Shown one piece after another: positions 14,424 through 31,074 of a stretch of DNA of 52,713 bases (the stretch's first letter is position 1; every line of letters starts with the position of its first letter). Origin of the DNA: Propionibacteriales bacterium (lineage in GTDB: Bacteria; Actinomycetota; Actinomycetes; Propionibacteriales; Nocardioidaceae); the NCBI GenBank assembly GCA_009377795.1, contig WHTJ01000021.1:1-52713 (forward strand), read 5' to 3'. The notes beneath the pieces were generated by a model. It ran no database searches and was not told where the DNA came from. It saw only the letters and a list, made by a program, of their open reading frames with translations. Both the position numbers and the translations under genes were made by a program.

Positions 14424-14438
14424 TATGCTGGACCTGTG
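14424..14438 (+). promoter_or_regulatory. -10 element and leaderless GTG start of the XRE-nucleotidyltransferase gene
   Basis: TATGCT at 14424-14429 fits the -10 consensus and ends six nt before GTG at 14436. No Shine-Dalgarno sequence separates them, so transcription probably starts at or next to the start codon, a common leaderless arrangement in actinobacteria. Confidence 0.45.
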
Positions 14439-14954
14439 GTTGACGGGCTCGCTGGATCGCTGCTGCGCGAGGCGCGGCGGCGCGCTCGCTTGTCTCAGGT
14501 CGAGCTGGCTCGCCGTGCGCGTGTCACGCAGAGTGTGGTGAGTGCCTATGAGTCCGGTACGCGTCAGCCGTCGTTGCCGACGCTGATGCGCCTGGTGAGG
14601 GCGACTGGTCTTGAACTCGACATAGGTGTCCGGCGTCCTCGGTCCGGCCTGCATCGCCTCAGTGGTCCTCTGGGACGACGCTTGCGCAAGCATCGCAAGC
14701 AGGTTCGACAAATTGCCGCCGCTCACGGGCTGTCCAACGTCCGGGTCTTCGGCAGCGCAGCTCGTGGGGAGGACAAGGCTGATAGCGACATCGATCTTCT
14801 TGTGGATGTGCCTCCGGGCGTCGGTCTCGTCGGCCTCGCACGGTGTCAGCACGACCTCCAGGCCCTACTCGACGCACCGGTAGACCTCGTCCCCGCTGAG
14901 GACGTTAAGCCCGGTGTCGCCCGCTCGGTCCTGGCAGAGGTAGTCGCCCTGTGA
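14436..14954 (+). CDS. XRE-family HTH fused to MNT-type nucleotidyltransferase
   Basis: 172 residues. Residues ~8-65 are an XRE/Cro HTH (RRRARLSQVELARRARVTQS, then VSAYESGTRQPSLPTL). Residues ~85-170 are a minimal nucleotidyltransferase with VFGSAARGEDKADSDIDLLV: the GSxxRG and SDIDL motifs and both catalytic Asp are intact. MNT proteins of this type are antitoxins that AMPylate or adenylylate a HEPN RNase toxin encoded immediately downstream. No complete HEPN gene follows here, only a 20-codon ORF resembling its first residues (15028-15090). The fusion could autoregulate its own promoter. It may now be an orphan antitoxin. Confidence 0.85.
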   Translation: MVDGLAGSLLREARRRARLSQVELARRARVTQSVVSAYESGTRQPSLPTLMRLVRATGLELDIGVRRPRSGLHRLSGPLGRRLRKHRKQVRQIAAAHGLSNVRVFGSAARGEDKADSDIDLLVDVPPGVGLVGLARCQHDLQALLDAPVDLVPAEDVKPGVARSVLAEVVAL

Positions 14955-16172: not shown

Positions 16173-17216
16173 ATGCCGCAGTACGGAAGCCTTGCCGGGC
16201 GGCGTACGATAACCGAACGCGTTGCGACTCTGCCCAAGGCGGAGCTGCATCTTCACCTCGAGGGAACCCTGGAGCCGGAGCTGATCTTCGAGCTCGCGGC
16301 CCGGAACCGGGTGCGGTTGCCGTACGCCTCCGTTGACGATCTCCGCCGCCGTTACGCGTTCACTGATCTGCAGTCCTTCCTCGACCTCTACTACGCGAAC
16401 ATGCGGGTTCTGCGGACCGCGCAGGACTTCCGCGATCTCACCACGGCATACCTCGCACGGGCTCGACAGGCCGGAGTCCGGCACGCCGAGGTCTTCTTCG
16501 ACCCGCAGGCCCATACCAGCCGGGGTGTCCCGCTTGCCGAGGCACTTGCCGGGGTCACGGAGGCGTTGTCGGACAGTGAGCGCGAGTACGGCGTCTCGAC
16601 CGGCCTCGTCGTCACCTTTCTCCGCGACCTCAGCGCGGACAGCGCCATGAGCACGCTGGAGTCGGTGCTCGATCTCGGGTCACCGGTGCTGGGTGTCGGG
16701 CTGGACTCCGCCGAGATGGGCCATCCCCCGGCCAAGTTCGCCGAGGTGTTCGCGCGCGCCCGTGCCGAGGGCCTGCGGTGTGTCGCGCATGCGGGGGAGG
16801 AGGGGCCGCCGGAGTACATCACGGACGCGCTCGACGTGTTGCGGGTCGAGCGGATCGACCACGGGGTCCGTTGTCTGGAGGACGACGGCCTGGTGGAGCG
16901 GCTGGTACGCGACCGGATCCCGCTGACCGTGTGCCCGTTGTCGAACGTGCGGCTGCGCGTGGTGGACGATCTGGCCGCCCACCCGATCGTGCGGATGCGG
17001 GACCGCGGCCTGCTGGTCAGCGTCAACTCCGACGATCCGTCCTACTTCGGGGGTTACGTGGACGAGAACTACGGCCAGCTCGCCCGGGAGTTCGGGCTCG
17101 ATGCCTCGACTCTCGCCGAGTTAGCCCGCAACTCGTTCGAGTCGGCCTTTCTGGAGCCGCCGCGCCGCGATGCGCTGCTGGCCGAAGTGGCGGCGTGGCG
17201 GCAGGCGGTTACCTGA
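16173..17216 (+). CDS. adenine deaminase / adenosine deaminase family protein (Aah1-like)
   Basis: 347-residue TIM-barrel deaminase. Zinc ligands are in KAELHLHLEGTL, CVAHAGEE (HAGE), and SVNSDDPSYF (Asp-Asp near the C-terminus); RIDHGVRCLED supplies another active-site His. The segment VFFDPQAHTSRGV is characteristic of adenine deaminases of the yeast Aah1 type rather than adenosine deaminases, so adenine to hypoxanthine is the more likely reaction. Hypoxanthine would feed the adjacent purine operon through xanthine dehydrogenase. It is convergent with allantoicase and overlaps it by 8 bp. Start ATG at 16173 lacks a strong ribosome site. Confidence 0.85.
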   Translation: MPQYGSLAGRRTITERVATLPKAELHLHLEGTLEPELIFELAARNRVRLPYASVDDLRRRYAFTDLQSFLDLYYANMRVLRTAQDFRDLTTAYLARARQAGVRHAEVFFDPQAHTSRGVPLAEALAGVTEALSDSEREYGVSTGLVVTFLRDLSADSAMSTLESVLDLGSPVLGVGLDSAEMGHPPAKFAEVFARARAEGLRCVAHAGEEGPPEYITDALDVLRVERIDHGVRCLEDDGLVERLVRDRIPLTVCPLSNVRLRVVDDLAAHPIVRMRDRGLLVSVNSDDPSYFGGYVDENYGQLAREFGLDASTLAELARNSFESAFLEPPRRDALLAEVAAWRQAVT

Positions 17217-18372
17217 GCAGAGCGCGGACCACGCCCTCGGGAAGGGCCGCCATCCCGGAGAACGGGCGCCGCGCGAGGAGCCGCGGCACCGCGTCGTCGT
17301 CCATGCCGGCGATCCCCGCGAGCACGGAGCGCGCGGGCTCGTCCGGCAGCAGGTTCAGCCAGCGCAGCGTGGCCGCCTCCCGGGCCGCAGGCGTCAGCTC
17401 GCCGTGCACCCGGAGCCGGGCCAGGCCGCCGTCGGGGAACACGTCGAGCCGCACGTGAGTCGCCGGCGCGTCCGAACCCGACCGGAGAAGGTGCCTCGTG
17501 TCGGGCTGCAGGCGGGTCTTGGGTACGACGTCGAACCACGCCTCCGGATCGTCCAGGTCATCGACGCCGGCGTCGGCGTCGACCCCACGCAGGCTCGCCC
17601 ACCCGGCCGCGTTGCCGATGAAGTACGACGTGTCGATCTCGACCCGCCGGATGACGCCTCGACCGCACAGCCGCGTGGTCACGTGGTCGTTTCCGCCGTC
17701 TCGGCGCCGGGCGTTTTCCCAGCCGTCGCTCATGATTCGGGCACGCCCGAGCGCGAGGATGTTGCACGCCGGCGAGTAGTACATGTCGGAGCAGTCGACG
17801 ACGTCTCCGCCGTTCTCCAGTGCCGCGAGGTCGATCGTGCCGTCGAGGAACCGCGGGTCGGGCACCGGCTCCCCATGGACGCGGAACCGCGCGACACCGC
17901 CGTCCGGGTAGATGGACAGCCGTACATGCGTGAACCGGCGCCCGTCGGAGACCGGGAAGGCGTTCTCGGCGTCGCCCTTGACCGGAGACTTCTCCACGAG
18001 GGTGACCCAGTCGGCCCGGGCGAGCTCGTCCGGGCCGGGATGGCCCTCGACACCGGTGGCCTCGACCGAGGCGTACGGCGGATGGTTCCCTGTGAACCAC
18101 GCCGTGTCGATCACGACGCCCCGCACCACACCGGGGACACCGAGCCGGACGATCGCATGGTCGTGACCCGGTTCGCGTCGCCGACGAGTCTCCCATCCGT
18201 CGTACACCTTGCCCTTGTGCCCGAAGTCGGCCGACGAGACCGGAGCCTCGGGCTCGATCAGGTTCTCCCGCTCGGCGAACAACTCGTCGTTGGCGTACAC
18301 CACGCTGCCGGCCAGCACCCGCGAGGCGAGGTCCGGCAGCTGCCTGAAGTCCGCGGTCTCCGGCACGGTCAT
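17209..18372 (-). CDS. alc: allantoicase
   Basis: Hydrolyses allantoate to ureidoglycolate and urea. 387 residues, with the two repeated allantoicase jelly-roll domains: DFGHKGKVYDGWETRRRR in the first half and IMSDGWENARRRDGGNDH in the second; each is followed by HVRLxxxPDGGxxRxRVHGE. The family is usually ~330-350 residues; here ~45 extra residues follow the second repeat (LRWLNLLPDEPARSVLAGIA, then LLARRPFSG), which resemble the first helices of OHCU decarboxylase. ATG at 18372 follows GGGGAGG. Last gene of the minus-strand purine operon, 8 nt after allantoinase. Confidence 0.93.
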   Translation of the reverse strand: MTVPETADFRQLPDLASRVLAGSVVYANDELFAERENLIEPEAPVSSADFGHKGKVYDGWETRRRREPGHDHAIVRLGVPGVVRGVVIDTAWFTGNHPPYASVEATGVEGHPGPDELARADWVTLVEKSPVKGDAENAFPVSDGRRFTHVRLSIYPDGGVARFRVHGEPVPDPRFLDGTIDLAALENGGDVVDCSDMYYSPACNILALGRARIMSDGWENARRRDGGNDHVTTRLCGRGVIRRVEIDTSYFIGNAAGWASLRGVDADAGVDDLDDPEAWFDVVPKTRLQPDTRHLLRSGSDAPATHVRLDVFPDGGLARLRVHGELTPAAREAATLRWLNLLPDEPARSVLAGIAGMDDDAVPRLLARRPFSGMAALPEGVVRALLR

Positions 18373-18380
18373 GCCTCCCC

Positions 18381-19712
18381 TCAGACCAGAAGCCGGCCGC
18401 GCGGGTCGGCTCCGAGGTCGATCTCGCGGCCGCCGAGCCAGGTGCTCCGGACCCGTCCGGTGAGCGTGCGCCCGGCGTACGGCGTGACGGGGTGCCGGTG
18501 GTGCAGCGACTCCGGGTCGACGACGAACGTCTCCTCCGGTGCGAACACACAGAAGTCCGCGGCGAATCCGGTCGCGACCCGGCCCTTGCGCAGCAGCCCC
18601 GCGGTCTCGGCCGGACGCCGCGCAGTCCACAGCGCCACGTCGGCGAGACCGAAACCGCGCCGACGGGCCTCGGTCCAGACCGCGGGGAGACCGAGCTGCA
18701 GTGAGGCGACACCACCCCACGCCGCGCCGAAGTCGCCGGTGTCGGGCCGCTTCAGCTCAGCAGGGCACGGCGAGTGATCGGACACGACGAGGTCGAGCAC
18801 ACCGTCGGCGAGGCCCGCCCACAGCCGCTCGCGGTTGGCCGCCTCACGAATCGGCGGGCAGCACTTGAACTGGGTGGCGCCGTCGGGAATCTCCTCCGCG
18901 GTGAACGTCAGGTAATGCGGGCAGGTCTCTGCCGTGAGGCGTACGCCGTCCCGTCGAGCGGTAGCGATCATCGGCAGCGCGTCGGAGCTCGACAGGTGCA
19001 GGATGTGCGCTCGGCATCCGGTGCGGCGGGCCAGCTCGATGACGTTCGAGATCGCGAGATTCTCGGCCGTCCGCGGCCGCGAGTCGAGGAAGTCGCGGTA
19101 CCTCCGGCCGTGCGCATCGGGTGCACGCTCGATCGCGTCGGACGCCTCGGCGTGCACGATCATCAGTGCGTCGAGCGACGCCGCTTCCCGCATGGCGGCG
19201 TCGAGCTCGTCCGGCCGCAACGGCGGGAACTCGTCCACGCCCGAGTCCACCAGAAAGCACTTGAAGCCGAAGACTCGGGCGCCGTGCAGCCCGCGCAGGT
19301 CACCGAGGTTGCCCGGGATCGCGCCGCCCCAGAATCCGACGTCCACGAAGCACTGGCTCTGCGCGGACTTGCGCTTCAGCTCCAGTGCGTCGAGGTCGGT
19401 CGTCGGCGGGACGCTGTTCAGCGGCATGTCGAGGACGGTGGTGACACCCCCGGCCGCCGCGGCCCGCGTGGCGCTCGCGAAGCCCTCCCATTCGGTGCGG
19501 CCGGGCTCGTTGACGTGTACGTGGCTGTCGACCAGGCCGGGCAGGAGCACGACGTCGTCGTCCAGGTCCACTGTGCGCCGCGCGTCCGGTGGGGAGTCGA
19601 ACGGCTCGATCGCGGTGATCGTGCCGTCGCGTACTCCGATGCAGCGGGCGGCCTCGCCGTCGTCCGTGACGACCCGCTGCGCACGAATCACGACGTCCTG
19701 CATTTCCTGCAT
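18381..19712 (-). CDS. allB: allantoinase
   Basis: Zinc amidohydrolase opening allantoin to allantoate, a homotetrameric cyclic amidohydrolase. About 443 residues. Metal ligands: HVHVNEPGRTEWEGF (HxH), the carboxylated Lys in GFKCFLVDSG, MIVHAEA, HILHLSSSDA and DLVVSDHSPC. TTVLDMPLNSVPPTT is family-specific. ATG at 19712 directly follows the uricase stop (TGA-g-ATG); ATG at 19703 is an alternative. Position between uricase and allantoicase agrees with the pathway order. Confidence 0.95.
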   Translation of the reverse strand: MQEMQDVVIRAQRVVTDDGEAARCIGVRDGTITAIEPFDSPPDARRTVDLDDDVVLLPGLVDSHVHVNEPGRTEWEGFASATRAAAAGGVTTVLDMPLNSVPPTTDLDALELKRKSAQSQCFVDVGFWGGAIPGNLGDLRGLHGARVFGFKCFLVDSGVDEFPPLRPDELDAAMREAASLDALMIVHAEASDAIERAPDAHGRRYRDFLDSRPRTAENLAISNVIELARRTGCRAHILHLSSSDALPMIATARRDGVRLTAETCPHYLTFTAEEIPDGATQFKCCPPIREAANRERLWAGLADGVLDLVVSDHSPCPAELKRPDTGDFGAAWGGVASLQLGLPAVWTEARRRGFGLADVALWTARRPAETAGLLRKGRVATGFAADFCVFAPEETFVVDPESLHHRHPVTPYAGRTLTGRVRSTWLGGREIDLGADPRGRLLV

Positions 19713-19713
19713 C

Positions 19714-20619
19714 TCAGCAGAATCCCGGTACGGCGAGCCAGGCGTTGCCCGCATCCGGAGCGTCGTCGCGCACGACGGCCGCCTCGATCAGGCCGTACGG
19801 ACGGTCCGCGGCGTGGAAGACTTCACCGGGGTTGTCCAGCCCGAACGGCGAGAGGTCGACGGCGAAGTGATGCTTGTTCGGCGCGGAGAACCGGATCTCC
19901 GCGATCTCCGGATGCGCTTCGAGTACGGACTCTCCCATGGCGTATAATGTCTGCTGCAGCGCCTGGCTGTGCACCTCGGCGAATCGCTTCAGGAGAAGGG
20001 CGCGCACCGAGTCGTACGTCTTGTCCCAGGCGACGTCGACTCCGGAGTAGCGCCATCGGGCGATCAGCGAGGTCGCGAGCACCCGTTCGCGGGTCTCCGC
20101 CAGAGTCGTGTACTCGTCCTTGAGGAACCCGTGGAACTCCGATCCGGTGGTCTTGGCGACGACGAGGTCCTTGAAACCGGAGACCACCCAGGTCTTCTGT
20201 CCGTCGCCGTCGGTTTCGACCGTGACTACGGTCGTACGGGTCTCCTGGCCGCGGCGTACGAACGAGTGCGCGTGGCCCGTGCCGTCGACCTGTATGCGGT
20301 CCCACGCGTACTCCTCGATCTCGACCCGCGCACCCCTGACCGCCGTCGAGTGCCGGACGAAGTGGTCGCCCAGGGTCCGGGCGAAGTCCTCGATCGGGCC
20401 TACACGGTTTTCCTTGGCGAACGCGAAAACGGTGTTCTTCTGGGTGTCGGTCGGGAGCACGTTCGCCTGGTCGCCGGTGACGTGCGCGTCGGTGAAGTCA
20501 CCGCGGAGAGCAGTCGAGACCGAGAGGTCGCGGATCTCGTGCCGCGGCGTGTCGCGGAGGACGCGCACGACCCGGGTCTCCGCCTTGCCGTACTGGTTGG
20601 GACCGAGGACGATTCCCAT
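19714..20619 (-). CDS. uao: urate oxidase (uricase)
   Basis: Cofactor-free enzyme converting urate and O2 to 5-hydroxyisourate and H2O2. 301 residues with both T-fold repeats. Catalytic Lys is in NQYGKAETRV, Thr in VLPTDTQKNTVFAFAKE, His in SAPNKHHFAVDL; HSFVRRG is also conserved. Starts at ATG 20619 five nt after the HIU hydrolase stop. H2O2 produced here has no catalase in the operon. Assignment is secure. Confidence 0.96.
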   Translation of the reverse strand: MGIVLGPNQYGKAETRVVRVLRDTPRHEIRDLSVSTALRGDFTDAHVTGDQANVLPTDTQKNTVFAFAKENRVGPIEDFARTLGDHFVRHSTAVRGARVEIEEYAWDRIQVDGTGHAHSFVRRGQETRTTVVTVETDGDGQKTWVVSGFKDLVVAKTTGSEFHGFLKDEYTTLAETRERVLATSLIARWRYSGVDVAWDKTYDSVRALLLKRFAEVHSQALQQTLYAMGESVLEAHPEIAEIRFSAPNKHHFAVDLSPFGLDNPGEVFHAADRPYGLIEAAVVRDDAPDAGNAWLAVPGFC

Positions 20620-20623
20620 GCGG

Positions 20624-20959
20624 TCAGCTCCCTCGGTAGGTCGAGTAGGCGAACGGGCTCAGCAGCACCGGCACATGGTGGTGCTGCGCGGGATCGGCCA
20701 GGGTGAAGGTGACGCTGATCTCGGGGAAGAAGCCGGCCTGGCCGGTGGCGGCGAAGTAGGCGGCGGTGTCGAAGCGGAGCCGGTAGGTGCCCGGCTCCGC
20801 GTGGTCGGGTCCCCAGTCGCTGACCCGCCCGTCGGCGTCGGTGGTCGCGGTGGTCAGCTCGGTGTACTGCTCGCCGTCCAGCCGTTCGAGCCGTACGGGT
20901 ACGCCGGCGGCCGGACGACCCCGGCCGGTGTCGAGCACGTGCGTGGTGACGGCGCTCAT
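20624..20959 (-). CDS. 5-hydroxyisourate hydrolase (transthyretin-like)
   Basis: 111 residues, a normal length for the enzyme, which hydrolyses 5-hydroxyisourate to OHCU. The signature His is in TTHVLDTGRGRPAAGVPV, the Arg is in TYRLRF, and the C-terminal tetrapeptide is YRGS, the invariant end of HIU hydrolases. ATG at 20959 overlaps the stop of the upstream fusion gene (ATGA), so hydrolase and OHCU decarboxylase, consecutive enzymes, are coupled. Confidence 0.95.
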   Translation of the reverse strand: MSAVTTHVLDTGRGRPAAGVPVRLERLDGEQYTELTTATTDADGRVSDWGPDHAEPGTYRLRFDTAAYFAATGQAGFFPEISVTFTLADPAQHHHVPVLLSPFAYSTYRGS

Positions 20960-22652
20960 GGGTCCAGCACCTTCTTCAAGCGGAGTAAGGCGATCTTGCG
21001 GAGCTCGTCCGCGACGACCCGGGCCTCGGTCTCCGGGCCGTGGGTCAACCGGAGACGCAGTGATTCCAGGATCTCCCCGGCGCCGAGGCCCGAGGCGCAG
21101 ATCAGGAAGACGTGGCCGAAGCGCGCTTCGTACTCGCGGTTGGCGGTCGCGAGTGCCTCCGCCGTACTCATGTCCCGCGAGACACCGGACTGCTCGGCAC
21201 GGGACCAACGCGCCGTCCGGCCGTCGCCACCGGCGCGTTCGCCGATCCTCGGGTGTGCGGCCAGCGCGCGCTCGACCTCGTCCGCGGTCCAGCTCCGGGC
21301 CGCCTCGTCCGCCCGTTCGACGGGGTCGTCTCGGGTGGCGTACGGCCGGCCCATCAGCAGGGCGTCGGCCCACGACTCCACGTCGCAGCAGGCCAGCAAC
21401 CGTGACCGGAGATCGGCCTCCGGGAGGGAGTTGAACTCGGCGAGTCCGGGATCGACCTCGTCCGGATCTAGTGCACCGCAGGCGATTCCGCGAGCAAGGA
21501 AGCCGCGCAACGCCGCCACGGTTGCCGGTTCGTCGAGCAGTCCCGGAGGTTCGTCCGCACTCGGCTGGTCGGAGTACGCCCGCAGGCGTTGCGCGGCCGC
21601 GGGCAGCCTCTCCCGGTAGAAGGCGTACGTCGCGAGGAACCGGCTCGGCAGCTGCCCTGGGTGCAGGTCCCAGCCCTGGTAGAACCCGCGCTCGAGTGAA
21701 CGCCGGACCAGCCTGCCGTGCAGTCTCCATGCGGATCGCACGTCGTTCCGATCCCCGACCGGAAGCACGTTCGTCGATCCGTCGGAGAGGCGTACGCCGG
21801 TGCCCGCGGCGGCGACCTGCATCACCGCCTTCGCGTGGTCGGCGGCCGGATGCTCCATGCTCTGGTACGGACCCGCGACCCCGCACGCCTCGGTGTAGTC
21901 GTACGTGCCGAAATGCAGGCCGTCGCACCGGCCCTGCGCGGCGTGGATCATCCGGGCCACGAGCGCGGTGCCGTCGGCGCCGACGACGGCCTGCGGCGTC
22001 TCCACCTGGATCTCGAACCGCAGCCGGCCGTCCGCGAGGCCGTGCGCCCGCTCCAGCCGCTCGCACACGTGCACCATCGCCTCGACCTGCTCCACCGAGC
22101 TCACCTTCGGCAGCGTGACGGTGAACCCGCCGGGCAGGCCGCCGTGTGCCGCCAGCTCGCCGGTGAACCGGTCGAGCGTGCGCAGGCCGCGTGCCCGAGT
22201 CGGGGCCTCGAGGCCCTTGATCCGGATGCCGCAGAACGGCGGCGCCTCACCGGAGGCCGCCGCGGTCGCCAGCGCCCGGGCGGCGTCCGTGGCGGCGTGG
22301 TCCTCCTCTGCGTCCGGCCGTACGCCGTAGCCGTCCTCGAAGTCGATGCGCAGGTCCTCGATCGGCTCGTGCTCCAGCTTGCGGCGTACCCGTTCGTGAA
22401 CCTCGGACACCAGCCGTTCGTCGAGACCGAACACCTCGGCGAGCTCGGCCGCCGTACCGCCGTGCAGGTCGAGCGCCTCCCGCGCCCGCCGGCCCCATTC
22501 CGCCACCACGTCGGCATGGAATCGGTCGGCGGGGACGTAGACCGTGTGCACCGGCCGGCGTCCGACCGGATCGCCGGGATAGCGCGCGGCGAGCGCGGCG
22601 TCGGCGTCCGCGAGCCGGGCGTCCAGCTCGGCCGCGAGTTCGGTGAGGTGGC

Positions 22653-22656
<4 letters not shown>
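20956..22656 (-). CDS. fusion of DUF6986 HpcH/HpaI aldolase-like domain with OHCU decarboxylase
   Basis: 566 residues. Residues 1-390 match the DUF6986 branch of the HpcH/HpaI/CitE TIM barrels: [42 protein letters not shown] (metal Glu219) and [16 protein letters not shown] (metal Asp253), then [17 protein letters not shown]. Residues ~405-566 are a complete OHCU decarboxylase: [27 protein letters not shown] (catalytic His468), WSRAEQSGV (Glu488), [10 protein letters not shown] and [14 protein letters not shown]. That domain releases CO2 from OHCU to give S-allantoin. The aldolase-like half has no known reaction; it may handle ureidoglycolate or glyoxylate, since ureidoglycolate lyase is missing and malate synthase is next door. 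ATG at 22656 overlaps the malate synthase stop. No stop or frame break separates the halves. Confidence 0.88.
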
Positions 22657-24249
<1,593 letters not shown>

Positions 24250-24257
<8 letters not shown>

Positions 24258-26625
24258 GCTCAACACGACCTTCCTGACCGCGATGGGATGCAGTACCGAA
24301 GCCAGTCTCAATGATGTGCTCAGGTCGCACCGGAACGCGAGTCAGCCACCGGCCGGTGGCGGCTCGAATCGCCTGCAACACCGCGGGACCGGACGAGATG
24401 GTCGGCGGCTCGCCGACACCACGCAGGCCGTACGGCGCGTGCGGATCGGGATATTCCAGCACCTCGATGCGCATCGGCGGCATGTCGAGAATGGTCGGAA
24501 TCAGGTAGTCGGTGAACGACGGGTTCATGATCTTGCCGTTCTCGACGACGATCTCCTCCATCACCGCGAGCCCCAGACCCTGCGCCGTACCGCCCTCGAT
24601 CTGCCCCGTGACGGCCTGCGGGTTGATTGCCTTGCCGACGTCCTGCACGCACGCCAGCTCCACGACCTTGATCAACCCCAGATCGACGTCGACGTCGACG
24701 ACGGCACGGTGTGCGGAGTAGGCGTACTGCACGTGTGCGAAGCCCTGCCCGGTCTCGGGGTCGACCGGCTGGGTGGGACGGTGCCGCCACTCCACGGTCT
24801 CCTCGAACGCCTCGCCGCGGAGCACGTCGGCCAGATCCGCGAGCACGCCGTACGCATCCGACACGACCTTGCCGCCGTCCAGCCGCAGGTCTGCATGGGT
24901 TCGCCCCAGCCGTTGCTGGACGACGCCGAGGACCCGATCGCGGACCTTCCGGCACGCGGCCCGGACGGCCCCTCCGGTCACGTAGGTCTGCCGGGACGCC
25001 GAGGTGGACCCACCGCTGCCGACCCGGGTGTCCTTCGGATGTACGACGACCCGCTCGACCCCCAGCTCGGTGCGGCAGATCTGCTGCTCCACGGTGATCA
25101 GGCCTTGGCCGACCTCCGCGGCCGCCGTGTGCACGGTCGCGGTGGGCTCGCCGCCGACGACCTCCAGCCGCACCCGCGCCGTGGAGTAGTCGTCGAAGCC
25201 CTCGGAGAATCCGACGTTCTTGTATCCCACGGCGTAGCCGATGCCGCGAACCACACCCTCCCCGTGCGTGGTGTTCGAGACGCCGCCGGGCAGGTCGCGG
25301 AGGTCCACCGGCCCCGGTGTCGCGGGTTCCGGCGGCAGGGGCATCGCCTGCAACCGCCGGAGCAGCTCGGCGACCGGCGCCGGACTGTCGACGGTCTGCC
25401 CGGTCGGCGCCTCCGAGCCCTGCTCCATCGCGTTGCGACACCGCACCTCCACCGGGTCCAGGCCGAGCTCGTCGGCGATCTTGTCCAGCTGCGACTCGTA
25501 GGCGAACGCCGCCTGTACTGCGCCGAACCCGCGCATCGCACCGCAGGGAGGGTTGTTGGTGTAGACGCCGTAGCAGTCGAGATGGACATTCGGTACGACG
25601 TACGGTCCGATGCCCATCGTGCCGGCGTTCCCGGTCACCGCATTGGTCGTGGAGGCGTACGCGCCGCCGTCCAGCCACAGCTCGGCCCGGACGTAGACGA
25701 TCGTCCCGTCCCGCTTGACGCCGTGCTCGTACCGCATCGTCGCGGGATGCCGGTGCACATGGCCGAAGAACGACTCCTCGCGGTTGTAGACCATCTTCAC
25801 CGGGTTGCCGGTGTGCCGGGCGAGCAGGCACGCGTGGATGTGCATCGACAGGTCCTCGCGCCCGCCGAACGCGCCGCCGACCCCACTCAGCGTGAGTCGC
25901 ACCATCTCCGGCGGCAGGCCGAGCGCCGTACAGATCTGCTTCTGGTCGGCGTGCAGCCACTGGGTCGCGACGTGCAGCTCGACGCCGCCGTCGCCGGACG
26001 GCACGGCCAGGCCGGACTCGGGTCCGAGGAACGCCTGATCCTGCATGCCGACCGAGTACTCGCCGACCACGACAGCGTCCGCCTCCGGCTGGGGGTCGTG
26101 GTCGCCCTTGCGAATTTTCAGGTGACGCACCAGATTTCCGCCGTCATGCAGTCTGGGCGCGCTCGGTTCGAGGGCCGCGCGGGCGTCCGTGAGCGGATGC
26201 AGTACCTCGTAGTCCACGGTGATCTTCCCGGCGGCCCGGCGGGCGATCTCTGGATGGTCGGCCGCGACCACGGCGACCGGCTCGCCCTGGTAACGCACGA
26301 CGTCCTCGGCCAGCACCGGCTGGTCGGCGTGCTCGAGCCCGTAGCGGTTCTGCCCGGGCACGTCCTCGTGGGTGAGTACGGCGTACACACCGGGCGTCGC
26401 GAGCGCCTCGCCGATGTCGATGGAGCGGATCCGGGCGTACGGATGCGGGCTGCGCAGCGTGACCCCACACAGCATGTCCTCCATCCACAGGTCGCTGGCG
26501 TACGCGAACTCTCCCCGGACCTTGAGCGTGCCGTCCGGTCGGACCGGACTGCTTCCGATGCCCTGGTGCTTGATCGCGACTCGCGTTCCCTCGTCGACCG
26601 TCACACTCAACGGGGTCGGGGTCAT
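24250..26625 (-). CDS. xanthine dehydrogenase, molybdenum-binding subunit
   Basis: 791-residue large subunit of a three-part xanthine dehydrogenase (PucD/XdhA-like), cytoplasmic. Features in order: [19 protein letters not shown] near residue 40, [12 protein letters not shown], the molybdopterin loop [64 protein letters not shown], and the catalytic Glu in [17 protein letters not shown]. Converts hypoxanthine to xanthine and xanthine to urate with the Fe-S and FAD subunits encoded upstream. ATG at 26625 overlaps the deaminase stop (ATGA). A XdhC-type insertase is not encoded nearby. Confidence 0.93.
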
Positions 26626-28013
26626 GAGATCACCCCCGCCCGTCGAAGCAACGTGGCGCTGGCGGATGCGGCCGCCCGGGCCACGTCCTGCTCGTCCAGA
26701 CGCACGACGGTGTCGTGCTCGACGAGCGGCCGGCCGTTCACCAGAAGCAGTTCCAGCGGTGGCGGCGAACCCAGCACGAGCGCGGCGACCGGGTCGTCGA
26801 TGTCGATGTGCGGCAGCGTGTCGAGCCGCCACAGGGCGACGTCGGCGAGTTTTCCCTTCTCCAGTGAGCCGATCTCGTCCTCGCGGCCGAGCACGCGCGC
26901 GCCGCCGAGGGTGGCCATCTCCAGCGCGTCGCGGACGGCGAGCGCCCTCGGACCGCCGCGCGCTCGCGCGAAGAGCAGAGCGTGCCGCACCTCCTCCAGC
27001 AGCGAGCCGGCCTCGTTGGACGCGGCACCGTCGACGCCGAGTCCCACCGGCACCCCGGCCTCGCGCAGCTCGCCGGTCCGGCAGATGCCGGCGCCCAGGC
27101 GGGCGTTGGACGAGGGACAGTGCGCGACTCCGGTGCCGGTGTCCGCGAGCTTGCCGATGGCCTCGTCGTCGAGGTGTACGGCGTGCGCCAGCCAGACGTC
27201 CTCACCGAGCCAGCCCAGTTTCTCGACGTACTCCACCGGAGAGCAGCCGAACCGCTCGCGGCAGAAGTCCTCCTCGTCGGTCGTCTCCGCGAGGTGTGTG
27301 TGCAACCGGACGCCCTCCCGGCGAGCCAGGGTCGCGGCCTCCGCGAGCAGGTGACCGGTGACGGAGAACGGCGAGCACGGCGCGACCGCGATCCGGACCA
27401 TCGCATCGCGGCCCGGATCGTGGTGCCGCCGGATCGCCTCCTCGGTGGCGGACAGCACGGTGTCGGCGTCCTCGACCACGTGGTCGGGCGGGAGCCCACC
27501 CTGCGACCGGCCGAGGTCCATCGACCCGCGGCACGGATGGAACCGCAGGCCGACGTCGGCGGCGGCCGCGATCTCGGCGGAGAGCAGGTCTCCGCTGCCC
27601 TGCGGGAAGACGTAGTGGTGGTCGGTGGTCGTCGTGCATCCGGTTCGGGCCAGCCAGGTGAGCGATCCGCGGGCCGCGGCGTGGACGATCTCGGCGTCGA
27701 TCCCGGCCCACACCGGGTAGAGCGTGGTGAGCCAGTCGAACAGCGTGTCGTCGACGGCCAGCCCGCGGGTGGCCCATTGGTAGAGGTGGTGGTGGGTGTT
27801 GACCAGGCCCGGTGTGGCGAGACAGCCACGGGCGTCGACCCGGCGTACCCGATCCTCCTTGCCGTGCAGGAAATCGTCCGGTACGGGTCCGGAGCCGACC
27901 GCCACGATCTCGTTGCCGTCGGCCACGATGTGCCCGGTCGTGTGCTCCGTGCGGTCGGCGTCCATGGTCACGAGCGCGCAGCCGTCGATGATCACCCGGG
28001 ACACGGTGTTCAT
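26622..28013 (-). CDS. 8-oxoguanine deaminase-like amidohydrolase
   Basis: 463-residue amidohydrolase of the TrzA/AtzB/guanine deaminase group. LVNTHHHLYQWATRGLA carries the metal HxH and the HHHxYQ pattern seen in 8-oxoguanine deaminases. Further: RFHPCRGSMDLGRSQGG, LHTHLAETTDEEDF, LAHAVHLDDE and GLGVDGAASNEAGSL (metal Asp). 8-oxoguanine deamination gives urate directly, so this enzyme would feed uricase without xanthine dehydrogenase; guanine or a related base is the alternative substrate. ATG at 28013 overlaps the [2Fe-2S] subunit stop. The gene lies inside the xanthine dehydrogenase genes, so expression is tied to them. Confidence 0.85.
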   Translation of the reverse strand: MNTVSRVIIDGCALVTMDADRTEHTTGHIVADGNEIVAVGSGPVPDDFLHGKEDRVRRVDARGCLATPGLVNTHHHLYQWATRGLAVDDTLFDWLTTLYPVWAGIDAEIVHAAARGSLTWLARTGCTTTTDHHYVFPQGSGDLLSAEIAAAADVGLRFHPCRGSMDLGRSQGGLPPDHVVEDADTVLSATEEAIRRHHDPGRDAMVRIAVAPCSPFSVTGHLLAEAATLARREGVRLHTHLAETTDEEDFCRERFGCSPVEYVEKLGWLGEDVWLAHAVHLDDEAIGKLADTGTGVAHCPSSNARLGAGICRTGELREAGVPVGLGVDGAASNEAGSLLEEVRHALLFARARGGPRALAVRDALEMATLGGARVLGREDEIGSLEKGKLADVALWRLDTLPHIDIDDPVAALVLGSPPPLELLLVNGRPLVEHDTVVRLDEQDVARAAASASATLLRRAGVIS

Positions 28014-28489
28014 CCCGCGACCCGGTCGGCGGCCCGGTCGGCGGCCAGGCGTACGGCGTCGAGGATCTTCTCGTATCCGGTGCATCGGCACAGATTCCCG
28101 GCGAGCGCCTCCCGGACCTCGGTGTCGTCGGGACGCCGGCGGCGCCGCAGCAGGTCGTGCGTGGCCACGACCAGCCCAGGCGTACAGAAACCGCATTGGA
28201 CGGCGCCGGCCTCGACGAACGCCTCCTGCACGGGATCGAGATCCTCGCCCTCGGTGAGCCCCTCGACGGTGACGACGTCTCGGCCTTGCGCCTGCCCGGC
28301 CGCGACCAGACAGGCGCACACCGGAGCGCCGTCCAGGTAGACCGTGCAGGAGCCGCATTCGCCTTGCTCGCAGGCGTTCTTCGAGCCGGGTAGACCCATC
28401 CGCTCACGCAGGACGTACAGCAGGCTCTCACCCTCCCGGACGTCGTCTGCTTGCTGCCGTTCGCCGTTGACGGTGCAGGTGACACGCAT
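28010..28489 (-). CDS. xanthine dehydrogenase, [2Fe-2S] subunit
   Basis: 159 residues. The plant-type [2Fe-2S] cluster ligands lie in NACEQGECGSCTVYLDG with a fourth Cys in VCACLVAAG, and the second, helical cluster in VQCGFCTPGLVVATHDLL and GNLCRCTGYEKILDAV. This is the electron-transfer subunit between molybdenum centre and FAD. Start ATG at 28489 lies 6 nt after the FAD subunit stop; the end overlaps the deaminase start (ATGA). Confidence 0.95.
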   Translation of the reverse strand: MRVTCTVNGERQQADDVREGESLLYVLRERMGLPGSKNACEQGECGSCTVYLDGAPVCACLVAAGQAQGRDVVTVEGLTEGEDLDPVQEAFVEAGAVQCGFCTPGLVVATHDLLRRRRRPDDTEVREALAGNLCRCTGYEKILDAVRLAADRAADRVAG

Positions 28490-28495
28490 GGTCGC

Positions 28496-29362
28496 TCATG
28501 CCTTCCGGTAGTCGTTCCAGGCCCAGGTGAACGCGCGGCGGGCCATGACCTGCAGTCCGTGCCGGCGGTATCCGGCCGTGCCGCGTACGTCGTCGATCGG
28601 GGACGCCGCATCGGCCACCAGCTCACCGAACCGGCGCACGACGCTGTCCCGCGGAGCGGCTCGGGACTCCCACAGGCCCTCCTCGGCCAACGCCTGGGAG
28701 AGGAACTCCTCGGCCTCGGGAGCCGGCCTCGGGGTCGCCGCCGCGGAGCCGAAGCCGGTGCCGACCCGGCGCCGTTCGGGGTGCAGGGCGATCGCGAACG
28801 CCGTGACCGCGATGACCATGGCGTTTCTGGTGCCGATCTTGCAGAACTGCTGTGGCCCGGTGGCCGCCGGAACCCATACCGCGGCGATCAGCTCGTCCGG
28901 CCGGAGAGCGTGCCGCTTCACGCCGGTGAAGAACTCGGCCACCGGGATCCGCCGGGTTCCGGTCACCGATGCGGCCTCGACCTCGGCGTCGACGGCCAGC
29001 AGGATCGGGTGCGAGTCGCCGGCCGGTGACGCGGCGCCCAGGTTGCCGCCGACCGTCCCGCGGTTGCGGATCTGCGGGGAGCCGACGGTACGGGAGGCGA
29101 TCGCGAGTCCGGGCAGCCGGTCGGTCAGCTCCGCGATCACCTGGGTGTAGGTGACCGCCGCACCGAGCCGGACCCGGCCGTCGTACACCGCCCATTCGGC
29201 GAGCTCGGGCACCCGGGTCAGGTCGAGCAGGGCGGCGGGACGGCGTACGTCGAAGTTGAGCTCGACCATCACGTCGGTGCCGCCCGCGATCGGCATCGCT
29301 TCGGGGCGCTCGGACTTGACCGCGAGAGCGTCCAGCCAGCTCGTGGGCTGGAGAAAGTCCAT
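28496..29362 (-). CDS. xanthine dehydrogenase, FAD-binding subunit
   Basis: 288 residues of the molybdopterin dehydrogenase FAD-binding family: MPIAGGTDVMVELNFDVRRP (FAD loop 1), GSPQIRNRGTVGGNLGAASP (FAD loop 2), FFTGVKRHALRPDELIAAV. Passes electrons from the Fe-S subunit to NAD+. ATG at 29362 is preceded by GGAG at five nt; the longer reading to 29428 is unlikely. First gene of the ten-gene purine operon, divergent from the PucR regulator with a 176-bp shared promoter region. Confidence 0.93.
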   Translation of the reverse strand: MDFLQPTSWLDALAVKSERPEAMPIAGGTDVMVELNFDVRRPAALLDLTRVPELAEWAVYDGRVRLGAAVTYTQVIAELTDRLPGLAIASRTVGSPQIRNRGTVGGNLGAASPAGDSHPILLAVDAEVEAASVTGTRRIPVAEFFTGVKRHALRPDELIAAVWVPAATGPQQFCKIGTRNAMVIAVTAFAIALHPERRRVGTGFGSAAATPRPAPEAEEFLSQALAEEGLWESRAAPRDSVVRRFGELVADAASPIDDVRGTAGYRRHGLQVMARRAFTWAWNDYRKA

Positions 29363-29481
29363 CACTGCTCCGGGTGCATCGGGATCTCCACTCGTCGTGG
29401 AGATCTCCCGAGTCAACTCCCGCGCCACCCCGTCGGGATAGCCGCAGCCGGCACAATTCGGTGCCCGGTGACGGGTGCACC

Positions 29482-29538: not shown

Positions 29539-31074
29539 ATGCGGCTGCGCGACCTGGTCGGTCCGTCCGGCATGCGGCTCGTCCCGCGATGCGACGACGG
29601 CCTGCTGGACCGGCCGGTCAAGGGGGTCTTCACCACCGACCTGCTCGATCCCCGGCGCTATCTCGATGGCGGCGAGCTGGTGCTCACGGGCCTGGTGTGG
29701 CGGCGAGTGGCCGGCGACTCGGAGACCTTCGTTTCCGCGCTGGCGGAGGCGAACGTCGCGGGTCTCGGCGCGGGCATGGCGCAGTACGGTGCGCTGCCCG
29801 ACGATCTCGTCGCCGCCTGCCGGGCGCACGGCGTCCCGCTTCTCGAGGTGCCCGAGGAGGTCTCGTTCGCCACCATCACCCGCCGCGTGATGACCGCCGA
29901 GCGGGCCGGCCGGTTGTGGCCCCGGCTGGTGGAGGCGATCGCCGAGGGGACCGGGCTCGACGAGGCGGTCTCGCTCGTCGGCGTGGAGCTCGGGCTGGAC
30001 TGCCGGGCCCTGAGCCCGGGCGGACGCCAGGTGGCGTCCGCGCACGAGCCCTGGCCGCCCGACCGGCTGGACCGGATCACCCGGGCCTTCCTCACCGCAT
30101 CGCGATTCCCGCTGGTCGTGCGGCTGGCCGACGGCTCGGACTGGTCGGTGTTCTCCACCGGGCCCATGTCCCGGCATCGGACCATGCGGTGGTTCGTCGC
30201 CGCGGGCGGCGATCACCGGACATGGAGCGACGAGGCGTCCGACGCCGTTGCGGAGCTGTGCGCGCTGGTGGCGCTGGAGCAGTCGCACCATGAGGCGGAG
30301 ACGAGGCTGGAACACAGCCTGGCCGACGAGATCATGCGGTCACTGGCGTCCGGTGAGCGGGGTCGCGCGCAGGCGCTCGACCGGCTCAGGGACCTGGAGG
30401 TACCGGCGGACGCCGGGCTCGCGGTGCTGGTGGCCGGCGTACCGTCGCGGCCGGAGCTGGCCGAGTCCCTGCGGATGCTGCTCGACGATGCCGCCCGGTC
30501 GACCGGACTGCACGCCGTGCTCGGCGTCCACGAGGGCCGGGCGGTGGCGCTGGTGTCGGGTGCGGCCGGGAAGCAGGCGGCGATGCTGGAGGAGGTGCGG
30601 GCGTGCGGGTCGCGGCTGGCGGCCGGACTCGACCGGGCGCGGCTGACCGTCGGCGTGGGTACCCGGTCGTCCTTGGCGGCGGTCTCGGGTGCGCTGGACG
30701 AGGCGCGGCATGCTCAGCAGGTCGCCGAGCTGCGGCCGGGCGCGTTCGCGATGGCCACCGGCGAGGAGGTGGGCTCGTACCGCGTGCTGCTCGCGGCCGT
30801 TCCCGACGACATCCGGCGCGACTTCGCCGGACGTGTGCTGCAGAGGGTCATCGAGTACGACGAGCGCAATGCCGCCGGCCTCATTCTCACGCTGGCCAGC
30901 TGGCTCGGGCACGGCGGCTCGTGGAGCCGGTGCGCCGCGGAGATGCATCTGCATGTGAACACGGTCCGCTATCGCATCGGCCGGGTGGAGACCCTCACGG
31001 AGCGCGACCTGCAACGCATCGAGGACCGGGTCGACGTGTTCCTCGCCCTCCGGTCCCTGGGGATCGACGTCTAG
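29539..31074 (+). CDS. pucR: PucR family transcriptional regulator
   Basis: 511-residue regulator. The N-terminal PucR domain is recognisable (MRLRDLVGPSGMRLVP, VKGVFTTDLLDPRRYLDGGE, LVLTGLVWRR, LPDDLVAACRAHGVPLLEVP), a central GGDEF-like/CdaR domain follows, and the C-terminal PucR-type HTH reads WLGHGGSWSRCAAEMHLHVN with TVRYRIGRVETLT. The family senses purine breakdown products or nucleobases. ATG at 29539 follows GGAAGGAGGG at good spacing. Divergent from the xanthine dehydrogenase operon, which it most likely controls; effector and sign of control unknown. Confidence 0.92.
   Translation: MRLRDLVGPSGMRLVPRCDDGLLDRPVKGVFTTDLLDPRRYLDGGELVLTGLVWRRVAGDSETFVSALAEANVAGLGAGMAQYGALPDDLVAACRAHGVPLLEVPEEVSFATITRRVMTAERAGRLWPRLVEAIAEGTGLDEAVSLVGVELGLDCRALSPGGRQVASAHEPWPPDRLDRITRAFLTASRFPLVVRLADGSDWSVFSTGPMSRHRTMRWFVAAGGDHRTWSDEASDAVAELCALVALEQSHHEAETRLEHSLADEIMRSLASGERGRAQALDRLRDLEVPADAGLAVLVAGVPSRPELAESLRMLLDDAARSTGLHAVLGVHEGRAVALVSGAAGKQAAMLEEVRACGSRLAAGLDRARLTVGVGTRSSLAAVSGALDEARHAQQVAELRPGAFAMATGEEVGSYRVLLAAVPDDIRRDFAGRVLQRVIEYDERNAAGLILTLASWLGHGGSWSRCAAEMHLHVNTVRYRIGRVETLTERDLQRIEDRVDVFLALRSLGIDV

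Follow-up and report, generated by a model that had tools for sequence, protein, structure and literature searches.

The window, i.e. the whole stretch of 52,713 nucleotides that was analysed, carries on its minus strand a purine-breakdown operon that extends from a xanthine dehydrogenase-type FAD subunit (29428) to an allantoicase (17209). The order of the operon is xanthine dehydrogenase-type subunits and 8-oxoguanine deaminase, malate synthase A, a DUF6986-OHCU decarboxylase fusion, 5-hydroxyisourate (HIU) hydrolase, uricase, allantoinase and allantoicase. The features are:

29539-31074, plus strand: PucR-type purine catabolism regulator, divergent from the operon (profile match)
28496-29428, minus strand: xanthine dehydrogenase-type FAD subunit (PF00941)
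28010-28489, minus strand: xanthine dehydrogenase-type 2Fe-2S subunit (profile match)
26622-28013, minus strand: 8-oxoguanine deaminase-type amidohydrolase (668.9 bits)
24250-26625, minus strand: xanthine dehydrogenase-type molybdopterin subunit (PF02738, PF20256, PF01315)
22653-24257, minus strand: malate synthase A (TIGR01344, 799.5 bits)
20956-22656, minus strand: DUF6986-OHCU decarboxylase fusion, 566 aa, ATG overlapping the malate synthase stop (open frame and profile matches)
21451-22614, minus strand: DUF6986 barrel of the fusion, residues 15-402, putative ureidoglycolate lyase, with D105, E107, D108, R145, E219, D253 and probably D375 (profile match, alignments, model pLDDT 89.7)
20974-21432, minus strand: OHCU decarboxylase domain of the fusion, residues 409-561, with H468 and E488 (profile match)
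20624-20959, minus strand: 5-hydroxyisourate hydrolase (profile match)
19714-20619, minus strand: urate oxidase (profile match)
18381-19712, minus strand: allantoinase AllB (profile match)
17209-18372, minus strand: allantoicase, start codon picked by eye (profile match)

The products of allantoicase are ureidoglycolate and urea, and malate synthase is a user of glyoxylate. For the step that lies between these two enzymes, from ureidoglycolate to glyoxylate, no other enzyme is annotated. Elsewhere in the window, a nucleotidyltransferase domain (PF01909) is fused to HTH_3 at 14436-14954 on the plus strand, a build resembling that of MNT-type antitoxins.

The anatomy of the fusion gene agrees with an earlier note that had been made from the sequence of this DNA. 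The frame is open over 566 codons from the ATG at 22656 to the TGA at 20956, joins a DUF6986 barrel (residues 15-402, E 8.5e-175) to a full OHCU decarboxylase (residues 409-561, E 1.8e-41), and is coupled by ATGA overlaps to malate synthase (22653-22656) and to HIU hydrolase (20956-20959). An in-frame upstream GTG is an alternative start that would yield 642 aa; the ATG at 22656, which overlaps the stop codon of malate synthase, is the more probable of the two. The match to DUF6986 (PF22484) scores 581.9 bits against a curated cut-off of 27 and covers profile positions 1-390 of 408, and the second half is a complete member of NCBIfam UraD_2 (TIGR03180; 166.7 bits, curated cut-off 139.4). Glu219, Asp253, His468 and Glu488 were all found where the note had placed them, H468 within HPRIG and E488 within AEQ, the catalytic His and Glu of OHCU decarboxylase. 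Neither PF04115 (AllA) nor PF01274 (malate synthase; Pfam MS_TIM-barrel) is among the families found in the fusion protein at E 0.001.

The fusion is known from one assembly. In the 110 other DUF6986 loci, no OHCU decarboxylase match was found within 250 bp on the same strand (0/110), and the nearest downstream OHCU decarboxylase is 761 bp away. Whereas UraD_2 (TIGR03180) is fused to DUF6986 here, it is separate elsewhere among the loci examined or, at several of them, in one frame with allantoicase. A Nocardioides locus (L107) has the order malate synthase, DUF6986, a 155-aa thiamine-binding/HTH protein, OHCU decarboxylase, HIU hydrolase and uricase, from which the arrangement in the window would follow by the loss of one small gene. 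The fusion is rare. It signals that both halves belong to the same pathway, and the function does not depend on it. Small proteins of the thiamine-binding-like plus HTH_22 kind lie near DUF6986 in urate clusters (L107:11353-11820, L077:12150-12722) and are perhaps metabolite-sensing regulators.

A search of the PDB with the single sequence gave nothing useful, and a profile search was required. An AlphaFold model of the DUF6986 domain of the window, made with 39 related sequences, reached a pLDDT of 89.7 and a pTM of 0.87. In Foldseek and VIA-align comparisons the model groups with malyl-CoA lyases, CLYBL and malate synthases; the values were Z 25.4 and 3.3 Å over 292 residues for malate synthase A 3cv2, and Z 24.8, 2.6 Å over 276 residues and 19% identity for malyl-CoA lyase 4l9y, VIA-align being compatible with other folds as well. 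The modelled fold is common to DUF6986 and malate synthase A, which is encoded next to it here, although the MS_TIM-barrel profile is unmatched in the DUF6986 protein.

By profile alignment D105, E107, D108, R145, E219 and D253 correspond to D42, E44, D45, R76, E141 and D168 of 4L9Y (chain positions less 21). Extracts of the malyl-CoA lyase study describe D42/R76 as an Asp-Arg pair, E44/D45 as water holders and E141/D168 as Mg ligands (PMC3832036). The Mg-ligand Glu and Asp, the Glu-Asp water holders and the Asp-Arg pair of the CitE-like/malyl-CoA lyase superfamily are accordingly all present in DUF6986, and the six residues are invariant in two alignments of 23 and 40 sequences. The first of these holds the window and 22 of 27 loci, L068, L069, L074, L089 and L090 having been dropped as redundant or as carrying an insert; the second holds 39 of 46 diverse rows drawn from the best 80 of 575 loci. 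D375 is likewise invariant in both (23 and 40 sequences) and stands immediately ahead of the final long helix in the model, a part spanned by no residue-level alignment; by inference it is probably the counterpart of the malyl-CoA lyase lid aspartate, Asp299. Three positions that are invariant or nearly so in DUF6986 differ from 4L9Y: K147 is Asn there, H248 is Ser and, by a weak alignment, D330 is Ala. H248, K147 and D330 are candidates for holding urea. R156 and K184 occur in malyl-CoA lyase too and are not peculiar to DUF6986.

The earlier note had also stated that the pathway lacks a ureidoglycolate lyase, and this holds for the known one: no AllA (PF04115) match is present in the host assembly (4.58 Mb, 96.8% complete). 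AllD gave nothing over the cut-off there; the five AllD-family relatives present score lower, at most 212 of the 496 bits required. The only urease match of the host is one of 24 bits with a stop inside. A second malate synthase of the host genome lies outside the purine operon (G000:C156:8011-8751).

AllA is cupin-like, and UGL of Burkholderia, a member of the FAH family, was once assigned EC 4.3.2.3. Percudani and co-workers, in the extracts consulted, give AllA/DAL3 as the urea-releasing enzyme, describe AllA as Ni-dependent and dispute the assignment of the Burkholderia UGL (PMC3793230). AllA/DAL3 (EC 4.3.2.3, PF04115) catalyses the reaction that is proposed here for DUF6986, the last step after allantoicase or AllE; it differs from DUF6986 in family, with no PF04115 match here, and in fold, the DUF6986 model being a malyl-CoA lyase/malate synthase barrel. 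A Mycobacterium smegmatis study traces the pathway as far as 'ureidoglycolate and urea', and the extracts consulted name no lyase (PMC4617892). Within the openly licensed PubMed Central literature, no paper was found that names DUF6986, and none that proposes by its title or the start of its abstract a role of the family as ureidoglycolate lyase.

The distribution of DUF6986 was determined in one fixed set of 296 genomes (Actinomycetota, as inferred from named relatives). Strong, full-length DUF6986 (E < 1e-100) is present in 33 genomes, allantoicase in 35 and AllE over the cut-off in three. G402, with two abutting DUF6986 pieces (best 5e-100), was counted as positive, and weaker matches in 77 further genomes, a fragment in G295 among them, were read as other barrel proteins. 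A maker of ureidoglycolate occurs in all 33 DUF6986 genomes, namely allantoicase in 30 and AllE in three; those without allantoicase (G008, G082, G249) are exactly the three AllE genomes of the sample. None of the 258 genomes of the sample that lack both makers has strong DUF6986. Fisher's test for DUF6986 against the makers gave p 8e-39 over 12 families, uncorrected for kinship; such values are overstated because the sampled genomes share ancestry. A tree of 43 rows with a known maker, built by a quick method and with forks left open, gave at least three switches between allantoicase and AllE.

Equal co-occurrence with AllA had been named beforehand as an observation that would speak against a role of DUF6986 on ureidoglycolate, and the distribution is otherwise: PF04115 was found in five genomes out of 296, one of which belongs to the 33 with DUF6986. 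This one (G249) has a distant match of 27.6 bits about 1.7 Mb from its ureide cluster. The protein concerned, at L065:1456-1965 (minus), lies beside a gene that reads like a flavin monooxygenase. AllD over the cut-off was absent from all 41 genomes searched; AllD-family proteins below it occur in 13 of the 41, with five such proteins in the host genome.

A second set comprised 150 genomes of the family of G023, which by inference from sequence would be Streptomycetaceae; DUF6986 of G023 and of G275 shares 90-93% identity with the protein from named Streptomyces. DUF6986 and allantoicase are both present in 134 of these genomes, both absent from six, and present singly in eight (allantoicase) and two (DUF6986), with a Fisher p of 5e-6 that is again uncorrected for kinship. 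The two genes lie megabases apart in complete chromosomes of the family (e.g. G023), so gene linkage is not the cause of their co-occurrence. G295, a Streptomyces-like genome among the six with neither gene, has no allantoicase and retains at L208 a DUF6986 fragment covering profile positions 16-112 with an in-frame stop.

The association has exceptions. Five of the 35 allantoicase genomes of the phylum sample lack strong DUF6986 (G038, G071 and G290, of one genus, and G259 and G083), as do eight of 142 in the G023 family. The allantoicase contig of G083 (4485 bp) ends just after OHCU decarboxylase and is thus cut at that place. AllA and AllE were found in none of these 13 genomes (12 without G083), nor in any of the 21 genomes searched in all, and AllD over the cut-off in none of the eight of the 13 that were searched for it. 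Conversely, G340 and G342 have DUF6986 and lack allantoicase, AllE and AllA. Since the 13 genomes lack DUF6986, AllA and AllE, either another lyase exists in them or none is needed. Their allantoicase clusters (L199, L202, L204 and L205 in the G023 family, L094-L098 in G038, G071 and G290) may accordingly hold a further missing ureidoglycolate enzyme or rely on spontaneous decay. Genes read by eye as a carboligase and companions are present in L199, L202 and L204, and a frame of at most 260 aa that follows allantoicase in L095 and L098 (two genomes of one genus; L098:10485-11264, plus strand) had no Pfam or NCBIfam match.

Spontaneous decay of ureidoglycolate is stated in an extract of PMC3793230 and would suit the 13 genomes, yet the reading that no enzyme is needed and that DUF6986 has an unrelated role in purine use leaves unexplained both the 33/33 association with two unrelated makers and the adjacency to AllE and urease, and is the most improbable of those considered.

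Neighbours of DUF6986 on its own strand, up to 250 bp away, were counted in the 110 loci other than the window, and comprise malate synthase (13), AllE (11), uricase (10), AllB (4), HIU hydrolase (4) and ureA (3). Among the 80 named loci that represent the best 80 of 575 matches, all of them Actinomycetota, AllE occurs in 14, allantoicase in six and both in none. Ureide genes are present in 30 of the 33 of these 80 loci that lie outside Streptomycetaceae, one of the 30 (L163) resting on an AllB-like match at 28% identity, and in none of the 47 from Streptomycetaceae. Thermoleophilia-like loci (the class name is a guess) recurrently have the order allantoinase, allantoicase, OHCU decarboxylase, HIU hydrolase, uricase and DUF6986; uricase was undetected in L083, L087, L090 and L093, and malate synthase was unmatched in the stretches examined. 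The common order in Arthrobacter is malate synthase, DUF6986 and AllE, and the Tsukamurella DUF6986 gene has a 4-bp overlap with one annotated as 'bifunctional allantoicase/(S)-ureidoglycine aminohydrolase'. In contrast to malyl-CoA lyase (R. sphaeroides, 4L9Y), DUF6986 stands in most loci among ureide genes and not in an acyl-CoA context. Of five plasmid matches to the family, three are annotated, each as 'aldolase/citrate lyase family protein', and two carry no annotation.

Urease genes directly follow DUF6986 in five loci from two lineages, namely G281, G231 and G223 (one family), and G255 and the Gordonia plasmid p174. The genes behind DUF6986 in L082 and L091 had first been guessed to encode glyoxylate carboligase, and a family search identified them as urease. 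Allantoicase lies in the same locus in G281 and G223, where it could itself explain the urease, and on a separate contig in G231. No allantoicase is near DUF6986 in G255 and p174, and the urease there is therefore not explained by the urea from that enzyme. The DUF6986 proteins of the latter two belong to a single divergent branch, with 71% identity between the two and about 50% to others. Urease alpha matches strongly (E 1.5e-20 or better) in 20 of the 33 DUF6986 genomes; all three that have AllE in place of allantoicase are among these 20.

With two alternative makers of ureidoglycolate, a user of glyoxylate and a user of urea as its neighbours, DUF6986 is best read as a ureidoglycolate lyase. 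We consider it likely, with good but incomplete confidence, that the domain catalyses the EC 4.3.2.3 reaction, is unrelated in sequence to AllA/DAL3 and closes purine breakdown in many Actinomycetota. Held with very slightly less confidence, though still as the probable case, is the fuller statement that DUF6986 is a second, non-homologous ureidoglycolate lyase which releases urea by C-N cleavage within its superfamily and is here part of a bifunctional protein with OHCU decarboxylase. To our knowledge the superfamily is known only for C-C and thioester chemistry. The earlier note had left open whether DUF6986 releases or consumes glyoxylate. Release, by cleavage of ureidoglycolate, is favoured by the sequence comparisons, as the family tracks the makers and adjoins urease genes, and consumption appears less favoured.

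If DUF6986 consumed glyoxylate, it would condense it with acyl-CoA or a different partner, much as malyl-CoA lyase or malate synthase does, either alongside malate synthase or as a substitute for it; in some branches a thioesterase would act afterwards. Among solved structures, malyl-CoA lyases and malate synthases have the nearest folds and are the only relatives found by sequence. The fold is shared with glyoxylate-condensing CoA enzymes, and the catalytic residues are conserved; malate synthase adjoins DUF6986 in 13 of the 110 loci, and in six of the 33 DUF6986 genomes no malate synthase encoded by the genome itself exceeds the cut-off. The other 27 do have one, and the host has two, so that a further consumer would be redundant in them while the cleavage of ureidoglycolate would be left empty. 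The divergent branch adds a point in favour of acyl-CoA chemistry, such as the formation of malyl-CoA: in the urease loci of both G255 and p174, a gene for a 4HBT/PaaI thioesterase overlaps the start of DUF6986, with the urease operon after it. These genes are:

L213:7471-7905: 4HBT/PaaI thioesterase gene overlapping divergent DUF6986
L082:10836-11336 (minus): 4HBT/PaaI thioesterase gene overlapping divergent DUF6986

The other loci searched yielded no thioesterase relative in the vicinity of DUF6986. Overall, the neighbours of DUF6986 are mainly ureide genes. A pure consumer of glyoxylate that tracks either maker (allantoicase 30, AllE 3) would also not explain the urease genes that follow DUF6986 in two lineages. 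The acyl-CoA alternative is lowered by these observations, the two thioesterase overlaps notwithstanding, and consumption of glyoxylate is regarded as unlikely.

Considerably less probable still is an action on ureidoglycolate other than urea release, e.g. as an epimerase serving another enzyme or as an amidohydrolase that releases ammonia. The co-occurrence data fit any enzyme acting on ureidoglycolate, and the stereochemistry allows an inversion step: by our own reasoning from CIP priorities, (S)-ureidoglycolate is arranged like (R)-malyl-CoA and not like (S)-malyl-CoA, so that in a lyase the binding pose must differ from that of malyl-CoA lyase or the other enantiomer must be used. The neighbouring urease genes, and the strong urease alpha in 20 of 33 genomes, three of which have no urea from allantoicase, suggest instead that urea is the product. 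Members of the malyl-CoA lyase fold family, as far as we know, break bonds beside a 2-hydroxy acid and hydrolyse no amides, which counts against an amidohydrolase.

For the ureidoglycolate lyase reading, we infer substrate, products, mechanism and the role of the fusion from gene anatomy, co-occurrence, neighbours, predicted fold and conserved residues. Malyl-CoA lyase deprotonates an Mg-bound hydroxyl and breaks the adjacent bond, the leaving enolate being protonated by an aspartate. Ureidoglycolate is a comparable 2-hydroxy acid with a ureido leaving group, and this mechanism serves as the analogy. Mg2+ on E219 and D253, with water ligands held via E107 and D108, would chelate the carboxylate and the 2-hydroxyl of ureidoglycolate, and R145, set in place by D105, would help the hydroxyl to lose its proton. 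Glyoxylate would then form as the bond between carbon and the ureido nitrogen (C-N) breaks. The urea that leaves would receive a proton from an aspartate in the C-terminal lid (probably D375), whereas in malyl-CoA lyase it is an enolate that is protonated at this point. Glyoxylate could pass to the translationally coupled malate synthase and urea, where the enzyme is present, to urease. Fusion to OHCU decarboxylase, which acts at an earlier step, would cause both activities to be made in a fixed ratio.

If true, the assignment would provide a function for a Pfam family of unknown function and would complete the pathway from urate to glyoxylate in many soil actinobacteria. It would decide whether urea is the form in which these organisms release their last ureide nitrogen. 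It would, moreover, offer a clear example of two unrelated proteins serving one reaction, in which a known reaction is carried out by a new, non-homologous enzyme.
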